From Sulfurimonas sp. (GTDB taxonomy: Bacteria > Campylobacterota > Campylobacteria > Campylobacterales > Sulfurimonadaceae), in assembly GCF_019429335.1 (NCBI RefSeq), contig NZ_JAHYJB010000001.1, positions 156,738-220,737 on the forward strand: a stretch of 64,000 nucleotides of DNA, read 5' to 3'. Within the stretch, counting starts at the first letter, position 1; the number at the start of each line of letters is the position of its first letter. Made by a program: the position numbers and the translations under genes. Positions 61,913-63,481 of this stretch are shown here, in pieces. Under the pieces are notes generated by a model. It saw nothing but the letters and a program-made list of their open reading frames with translations. It made no database searches and was not told where the DNA came from.

Positions 61913-62042
61913 TCAAATACCTTATAACAAAATATTGGGCTTATAATACCACAAAAAATATTAGCCTCTACATTAAAAGGGGGATTTTTCTCAATTTAAT
62001 TTCAAATATAAGCGGCAGAGTGTATAATTTTGACAATTAACC

Positions 62043-62156
62043 AAAAGAGTCAAATAACTCTTTTTTTGCCGCAAGGCAAAGCTTTTATTTTGTGCTTAAA
62101 AATGGCACAAAACAGACGAGTGACTGAATATAATTTGGACCTTGTTCAAATTATAT
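62043..62156. repeat. Array of four consecutive inverted repeats (hairpins) between motA and glmU
   Basis: AAAAGAGT-caaata-ACTCTTTT (62043-62064); TTTGCC-gcaa-GGCAAA (62065-62080); TTTTGTGC-ttaaaaatg-GCACAAAA (62088-62112); ATATAATTTGGAC-ctt-GTTCAAATTATAT (62128-62156). Confidence 0.8.
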
Positions 62157-62179
62157 GAGATTTGATAGTAGGAGCGAAA

Positions 62180-63481
62180 ATGAATAAAAACAAAATAAGT
62201 ATCGTAATTTTAGCCGCAGGAAAAGGGAGCCGCATGAAGTCTCCTAAAGCGAAGGTTTTGCACACCGTCTGTGGCAAGGAGATGCTCTACTATATTATCA
62301 AAACTTCACGTAAGATTAGCGATGATATTACAGTGGTTGTCGCACATCAAAAAGAGAGTGTCACAAAACTTATGAGCTCATACTTTGATGATATAAACTT
62401 TGTGACTCAAGACACGGACAACTTCCCGGGAACAGGCGGAGCTATGAAAAACATCTCTGTAAAAAATGAAAAAGTGCTGGTTCTAAACGGAGACATGCCT
62501 CTTGTTACGGCAGTTTCTCTGGAGGGATTTCTAGAGAGCAAAAGCGATATAGTCATGTCGATTTTTGATTTGCAAAATCCAGACGGATATGGACGAGTTA
62601 TCATCAAAGAGGGACATGTTGAAAAAATCGTCGAGCAAAAAGACGCTTCGGCAGCTGAGCTCAATGTCACAACCGTAAATGCGGGAATATACGCCTTTTC
62701 AAAGCAGATACTGGAGAGATACATCCCACAGCTTAGCAACAACAACGCGCAAAAAGAGTACTACCTTACGGACGTTATCTCTATGGCAAGGTTCGATGGT
62801 CTAAACATCACTCCGCTTCTGGTTGACGAGGAGCGTTTCAAGGGTATAAACTCCAAAAAAGACCTCTCAGATGCAGAGGTGATTATGCAGGATAGAATCA
62901 AAACATCTCTTATGGAGTCAGGCGTAATTATGCAGCTTCCATCAACCATCTACATAGAAGAGGGAGTGACATTTGAGGGCGAGTGCATCGTTGAAAACGG
63001 ATGCCGTATAACGGGAAACTCTAAGATAATAAACTCTCATATCAAAGCGCACAGCATTATTGAGGAGAGCATAGTTAAAAACTCCGACATTGGTCCTTTG
63101 GCGCACATTCGCCCTGCTTCGCTGCTTGAAGATACGCATGTCGGAAATTTTGTCGAGGTTAAAAAGTCCACACTAAAAGGCGTAAAAGCTGGGCATCTAA
63201 GCTACATCGGCGATGCTACTGTTGATGAGGGAACAAACATCGGTGCGGGAGTTATTACATGCAACTACGACGGAATTAAAAAGTATGAAACAATCATCGG
63301 AAAAAATGTTTTCATTGGAAGCGACAGCCAGCTTGTAGCACCCGTAACAATAGAAGATAACGTTATGATAGCTGCAGGAACAACTGTTACAAGCAGCAGA
63401 GTCGAGAGCGGAACTTTGGCGATAAGCAGAACAAAACTAAGAACGATAGAAAATTTTTACCATAAGTTTTTCAAAAAATAG
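62180..63481 (+). CDS. glmU: Bifunctional GlcNAc-1-P uridyltransferase / glucosamine-1-P acetyltransferase
   Basis: [27 protein letters not shown], left-handed beta helix [49 protein letters not shown] after AGGAGCG. Confidence 0.97.

Follow-up and report, generated by a model that had tools for sequence, protein, structure and literature searches.

The window analysed here is a stretch of 64,000 nucleotides from a Sulfurimonas genome, and the interval upstream of its glmU gene raises the question of why four different hairpins should stand side by side there. A sequence-only reading had noted four inverted repeats with unrelated arms and had offered a structured RNA or glmU leader, a protein-binding array or a hairpin-type repeat element as explanations. 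All four inverted repeats were recovered (Table 1). The stem of hairpin C consists of 12 Watson-Crick pairs and one G.U pair. The interval is far more stable than its shuffled counterparts, with the 136-nt plus strand folding at -40.4 kcal/mol against -22.9 +/- 3.3 kcal/mol for dinucleotide shuffles (z -5.28; 0/200 as good). The minus strand folds more weakly (-31.8 kcal/mol, z -4.24).

Table 1. Features of the interval upstream of glmU (window coordinates; SD, Shine-Dalgarno sequence)
Feature	Positions	Strand	Basis
TATAAT, -10-like box conserved at glmU, upstream of the insertion	62023..62028	+	orthologue comparison
Hairpin A, arms AAAAGAGT / ACTCTTTT	62043-62050 / 62057-62064	+	inverted repeat located in sequence
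Native (ancestral) glmU SD AAAAGAGT, now the left arm of hairpin A	62043..62050	+	relatives without the element
Right arm of hairpin A, ACTCTTTT, the element-borne anti-SD arm	62057..62064	+	complements native SD
Hairpin B (stem P2), TTTGCC-GCAA-GGCAAA	62065..62080	+	97% of cells paired; 4/5 pairs with two-sided changes
GCTTT, conserved core, first part of the P2-P3 junction	62081..62085	+	alignment of copies
Hairpin D, optional arm between GCTTT and AGTGA; arms TTTTGTGC / GCACAAAA	62086..62118; arms 62088-62095 / 62105-62112	+	present or absent among copies
AGTGACTGA, conserved core, second part of the P2-P3 junction	62119..62127	+	alignment of copies
Hairpin C (stem P3), 13 bp, loop CTT; arms ATATAATTTGGAC / GTTCAAATTATAT	62128..62156; arms 62128-62140 / 62144-62156	+	12/13 pairs with two-sided changes, 90 distinct copies
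GAGA after P3, conserved; can pair with UCU just before P2 (short stem P1, three-way junction)	62157..62160	+	inferred
AGGAG, new SD in the element's 3' end, separated from the glmU ATG by 5 nt	62170..62174	+	sequence, orthologue comparison
glmU, downstream gene, ATG at 62180	62180..63481	+	NF010939 GlmU, 706 bits against a cut-off of 592

One account would be one or more intrinsic terminators together with unrelated hairpins between motA and glmU, and hairpin B does score as terminator-like on its own. The objection that a single terminator would account for one hairpin and not for four is sound. The upstream gene motA, encoding a MotA/PomA-type stator protein, is divergent from glmU, so no gene ends inside the interval. 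The same ordered modules also occur at many other loci, including positions inside operons, and the recurrence of hairpin B within operons such as secD-secF argues against a plain terminator. We regard this explanation as highly improbable.

Hairpin C occurs once within the window, its second match there being this very site read from the opposite strand, and its segment is repeated elsewhere in the host genome (G000). A blastn search of this genome with positions 62000-62200 returned seven further places, giving eight copies, all of which span the hairpin C segment. Most of these, in one orientation, share an ordered series of modules consisting of hairpin A (AAGGAGTCAAAATGACTCCT), hairpin B (CTTGCC-n-GGCAA), AGCTTTAGTGACTGA, hairpin C, GAGATTT and AGGAG, the last standing a few nucleotides 5' of a start codon in the aligned copies. 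Hairpins A, B and C, together with the optional arm D, belong to a single modular repeat family, rather than being four unrelated features. A covariance model built on hairpins B and C (R1) detected 14 copies in the host genome (E < 0.001) and further copies in 12/24 other genomes of the genus. The remade model (R2) raised the host count to 15 and identified 36 carriers among 60 Sulfurimonas genomes, with 1-19 copies each. Across the order Campylobacterales, R2 found carriers in 73 of 299 genomes, spread over 24 of the 81 genera; copy numbers here are lower bounds because only 16 candidates were scored per genome. Most of the genomes compared are metagenome assemblies. In a scan for the exact core the named carriers were Sulfurimonas, including the isolate S. 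indica NW8N, which has a copy at dapF (L101), and the carrier MAGs were labelled Sulfurimonadaceae, Helicobacteraceae, Sulfurospirillum, Sulfurovum, Campylobacterales and Campylobacterota.

The copies are roughly 75-135 bases long and fall into two classes, class I (GTGACTGA-stem-GAGA) and class II (GTGAGAGGAATT-stem-AAGGAGA). Class II is common outside Sulfurimonas, often as tandem arrays of 75-80 nt units. A tandem array of four copies about 77 nt apart was also observed in G053 (C74). The nearest neighbour of a copy lies in the same genome in 24/70 cases, against 3.9 expected, and MAG S010_53 holds seven copies with 95-99% identity at several different genes, which on sequence comparison shows recent amplification and spread within one genome. 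The proposal of a hairpin-type repeat element is strongly supported by these genome-specific subfamilies, by the dispersed copies and by the empty sites described below.

The family is apparently unnamed. Across 21 loci, no Rfam 15 covariance model matched the element with E up to 1, with the one exception of L164, where a 23-bit match lies far below the gathering score of 86. We found no blastn match for either class in plasmid collections, nor for class I, the class compared, in phage collections, and searches of the open-access literature for the element, for SD-targeted repeats and for the core sequence returned nothing relevant.

Is the structure itself conserved? Covariation had been proposed as a check, and we applied it to the dispersed copies. 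Among 90 distinct copies, 97% of the cells in the two core stems form standard pairs, and 16 of the 18 core base pairs have two-sided changes. We counted 231 two-sided cells, compared with 52.7 after shuffling and 27-52 in controls with slid partners, in an alignment that was fitted to the tested structure and hence favours it. A structure-free MAFFT alignment of the starting eight copies already contained 12 two-sided cells against 3.4. Stem sequences that are plainly unrelated between copies still pair. The mismatches also carry information on the strand, with 149 G.U pairs against 8 A.C mismatches, or 75 against 8 once a single pair that is nearly always G.U is removed. Such a large excess of G.U identifies the gene-sense strand as the one that folds, since folding of the opposite strand should give an excess of A.C instead. 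Judged from these substitutions, the stem structure is under selection on the gene-sense strand.

The RNAalifold consensus of 81 extended copies is closed by UCU/AGA, which are complementary in 74/81; this would form an outer stem, P1, free of two-sided covariation. The family core consists of P2, the junction GCUUU-(optional arm D)-AGUGACUGA, P3 and GAGA, and is likely to be a three-way junction closed by UCU/AGA. At the 5' end the anti-SD arm pairs with the native SD left upstream to make hairpin A, and at the 3' end the element supplies an AGGAG of its own, some 5-8 nt from the start codon of the host gene.

Arm D is missing from the glmU-associated copy in MAG E10_70 (L056/L085). Within the G000 copies at aat and ffh, a near-identical arm is found at the corresponding position, as it is in copies from G063, G015 and G068, one of these last being class II. 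Its presence at one position in several copies and its absence from others mark it as an optional module. At aat, G000 and G063 each have a copy with arm D, and stem C of one copy differs from that of the other by two two-sided changes (ATGCAACTTGAAC/GTTCAAGTTGCAT compared with ATATAACTTGGAC/GTTCAAGTTATAT). Pairing therefore appears to have been kept at a resident site, with independent insertion as the alternative. Two incomplete forms were also seen. Of two copies at the same HAD-type gene in two genomes (L094 and L148), L094 lacks hairpin C and retains hairpins A and B intact, on its sequence a clean loss of one arm. At L268 (G002 C21) a D-type hairpin stands without the other modules and may be a lone remnant or a small hairpin repeat in its own right.

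The same alignments bear on whether the conservation could be that of a short protein-coding gene (MTPLxKGEALVTEYNLDLFKLYEI*) that merely resembles hairpins. Many copies do carry an SD and ATG within hairpin A and also a frame that stays open across stem C. Only 34/85 copies, however, have a frame that begins with ATG and runs through stem C, in 22 copies a stop interrupts the frame, and the frame shifts between loops of 2 nt and 3 nt. What is preserved is the pairing and not the codons; at L028 the two-sided change in a stem produces a stop in frame. A coding origin of the pattern is hardly credible. We also rejected a promoter or operator palindrome at a TATAAT in stem C, as the stems of other copies are unrelated and lack TATAAT.

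Orthologous loci with and without the element provide evidence for insertion. At glmU the filled site reads AAAAGAGT-[CAAATAACTCTTTT...GTAGGAG]-CGAAAATG and empty sites read AAAAGAGTTAAATATG, AAAGAGTTAAAAATG, AAAAGAGTAAAAATG and others. In relatives without the element (for example L119-L123) AAAGAGT/AAAAGAGT is followed by ATG within a few bases. Thirty glmU loci comprise the window, one locus with another hairpin-rich insert (L124) and 28 without a copy or comparable insert. At the gene for an SPFH protein G000 has AAGGAG-[element]-AGGAGTAAGCAATG (in full, AAGGAG-[TCTAAATGACTCC...TTAATAGGAG]-TAAGCAATG), compared with AAGGAGTAGACAATG and similar junctions in eight relatives. Among 28 secD-secF junctions read, one is filled, one holds a remnant of hairpin A only (L241) and 26 are empty. 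Empty orthologues thus place insertions at or beside the SD of glmU, the SPFH gene and secF; for a CBS-domain gene the empty-site comparison comprises a single orthologue. In the rpmJ leader the element lies near the SD in about ten genomes and is absent in others, and in four genomes it occupies a second place, within an upstream hairpin. Absence from nearly all relatives would make insertion far more economical than repeated loss.

Two of these loci deserve separate mention. In L124 (G055) a hairpin-rich insert of another kind, more than 100 nt long, separates the glmU TATAAT from the SD, and the same leader seems to have been invaded there by another element. At L241 (G053) only hairpin A (AGGGAGTCAAAATGACTCT) and AGTTAGGAAG precede secF, an apparent deletion remnant of the element.

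The flanks of the copies are less uniform. Direct repeats of 57 bp and 26 bp flank L020 and L018 (G000 C39 and C65) and duplicate part of the upstream gene; in a chance control of 600 mismatched flank pairs the longest match was 16. Elsewhere the flanking repeat is about 6 bp (AGGAGT, at the SPFH gene), and none is clear at glmU. Because the lengths vary, these repeats do not amount to a fixed target-site duplication.

We conclude that the interval is probably a copy of a mobile hairpin element of the Campylobacterales, small and non-coding and similar to MITE and BOX elements, inserted in the 5' leader between the native SD and the ATG of glmU. At the level of sequence comparison, dispersed copies, empty sites, sense-strand covariation, a position before start codons and recent amplification in one genome are demonstrated, and with them mobility over evolutionary time, structure and placement. 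Like MITEs the family is non-autonomous, AT-rich, base-paired and multi-copy (review PMC10969869; defining features PMC3049150), with small dispersed copies and empty orthologous sites. Its ends show only the 3-bp pairing UCU/AGA, and unlike MITEs neither a terminal inverted repeat spanning the element nor a target-site duplication of constant length was demonstrated. BOX elements of Streptococcus pneumoniae (boxA-boxB-boxC) are modular, interspersed and proposed to be parasitic and non-autonomous (PMC3049150). They share with our family small size, modularity, predicted RNA stem-loops, an optional middle module and copies near genes (PMC3049150), a likeness that is architectural and was drawn from the description of boxA/B/C. 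In contrast to BOX, the present family has a P2/P3 junction core with extensive two-sided covariation, sites at SDs and start codons and a replacement SD. No terminal inverted repeats have so far been matched to an IS.

To which genes, then, does the element attach itself? An ORF of at least 50 aa starts between -22 and +15 nt from the element end in 80 of 88 testable copies (median +5), under a permissive rule that 22% of random positions in the same loci also pass. Eight copies are exceptions. Four stand directly before rpmJ and fail because the 37-codon rpmJ ORF is too short, and two are inner members of tandem arrays. Placement also differs at L018, which is within the 3' part of a gene, and at L155 (G278) and L158 (G096), class I-like copies beside tRNA genes, antisense to the flanking tRNAs; as these three lie away from start codons, SD-proximal placement is not universal. 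The downstream genes, named from their translations except for glmU, which was assigned by family search, are functionally mixed, many of them with housekeeping roles. They include secF, aat, recR, ffh, pgk, pyrG, dapF, murC, lpxC, thrB, purM, purD, mnmG, nhaA, hisB, aroC, argF, YbaB and rpmJ, among others, and we found no regulon or pathway common to them.

In the inspected orthologues without the element TATAAT stands mostly 30-35 nt (once 22) before the ATG, and in the window it stands 157 nt before the glmU ATG. With the box upstream, the element very probably lies within the glmU transcript and is probably transcribed as its leader; more generally, copies would be transcribed within the mRNA of the downstream gene. 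At glmU the native SD is now enclosed in hairpin A, with the element providing the pairing arm and a new AGGAG before the ATG. In a single run with one folding model, the new SD of 49 copies was unpaired with a mean probability of 0.49, compared with 0.375 with shuffled upstream sequence (Wilcoxon p = 0.0007), which fits a self-folding element that leaves the SD of the gene free. The window copy is an exception, with a predicted unpaired probability of 0.01. We suggest that the element may be tolerated because it supplies its own SD and because its self-folding would usually keep that SD more open than expected. A switch acting by SD sequestration was rejected, as mean accessibility lies above and not below that of the shuffled sequences.

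These observations also allow us to weigh whether the family is instead a class of cis-regulatory RNA, riboswitch-like or a protein-bound leader, that serves a regulon and whose anti-SD arm chooses between native and new SD. Conserved sense-strand structure is indeed present in 5' leaders, with covariation, a conserved unpaired core and a fixed place before the SD; the anti-SD arm could in principle pair with either SD, and the new glmU SD is closed in the predicted fold of the window copy, which contains arm D. The two-sided changes between the aat copies of two genomes add to this, and stems conserved at one locus across species would also fit a function for the host. Against it stand the lack of a pathway common to glmU, secF, aat, recR, ffh, rpmJ, pgk, pyrG, purM, murC, lpxC and the others, the absence of the element from most glmU, secF and SPFH orthologues, and a new SD that is on average more open rather than sequestered. 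We consider this reading quite unlikely. For glmU itself the earlier suggestion of a structured RNA leader holds for structure and position, given the covariation on the gene-sense strand downstream of TATAAT. A dedicated regulatory function is unsupported, since almost all glmU orthologues lack the element and the same element precedes dozens of unrelated genes, and no evidence emerged for a protein-binding array. From the comparisons made here, the element is not a glmU-specific regulator but a mobile, structured, SD-proximal repeat family.

Hairpin A may bear on how the mobile element finds its sites. The SD-like left arm varies in form from one host gene to another, and the anti-SD arm matches it each time (AAAAGAGT/ACTCTTTT, AAAGAAGTCA/TGACTTCTTT, AGGAATT/AATTCCT and AGAAAAAAT/ATTTTTTCT). 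One tentative and still doubtful idea is that the element guides itself, its anti-SD arm (consensus TGACTCCT) picking insertion sites by pairing with SDs, possibly via an RNA intermediate, as the sense RNA is the strand that covaries. What is recognised would be the sense RNA or the sense single strand. The covariation of arm and SD is compatible with guided insertion, with adjustment after insertion, which may hide the orphan SD together with the ATG of hairpin A, or with both.

A different route of movement would be that of a REP/REPIN-type palindrome carried as single-stranded DNA by a Y1 tyrosine transposase (RAYT). Hairpins, small size and strand polarity would fit, and G000 encodes a Y1/RAYT-like protein (G000:C70:27130-27462, L262). 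REP/REPIN sequences are likewise short palindromic repeats, probably mobile and found in arrays (PMC3116915, PMC3733652). The present copies differ in having about 75-135 nt, several arms and nearly always one orientation relative to the downstream gene. Neither a GTAG nor a CGTC tag was seen at the stem base in the inspected copies, in which CTGA and GAGA flank stem C and stem B is followed by AGCTTT. A Y1_Tnp hit above the cut-off was present in 15 of 36 carriers compared with 7 of 24 genomes lacking the element (Fisher p = 0.42), showing no association, with no Y1 match in the closed genome G048 (16 copies) or in G071 (10 copies). The G.U bias also points to RNA more than to DNA, and we judge mobilisation by RAYT to be improbable. 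The TAACTGA direct repeats of marine Beggiatoaceae lie a few nucleotides 5' of the start codons of unrelated genes and have been suggested to act in translation (PMC4679880). They share with our family the position before start codons and the string ACTGA, but are tandem heptamers and not covarying stem-loops, and insertion at SDs was not shown for them.

The mobile hairpin element occupies an unusual niche, between a native SD and a start codon, and carries a replacement SD along. If the insertion preference is real, it shows that a mobile element can precede essential genes without silencing them, and the orthologues with and without copies form a natural series for how 5' leaders tolerate structure. 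Copies can also be miscalled as riboswitches, terminators or small ORFs during annotation. On the other side of the intergenic region, many relatives share a conserved block beside motA (AAAATATTGGGCTTATAATACCACAAAAAATATTAG, window 61929-61967), which may act as the promoter of that divergent gene or as a site for a regulator.
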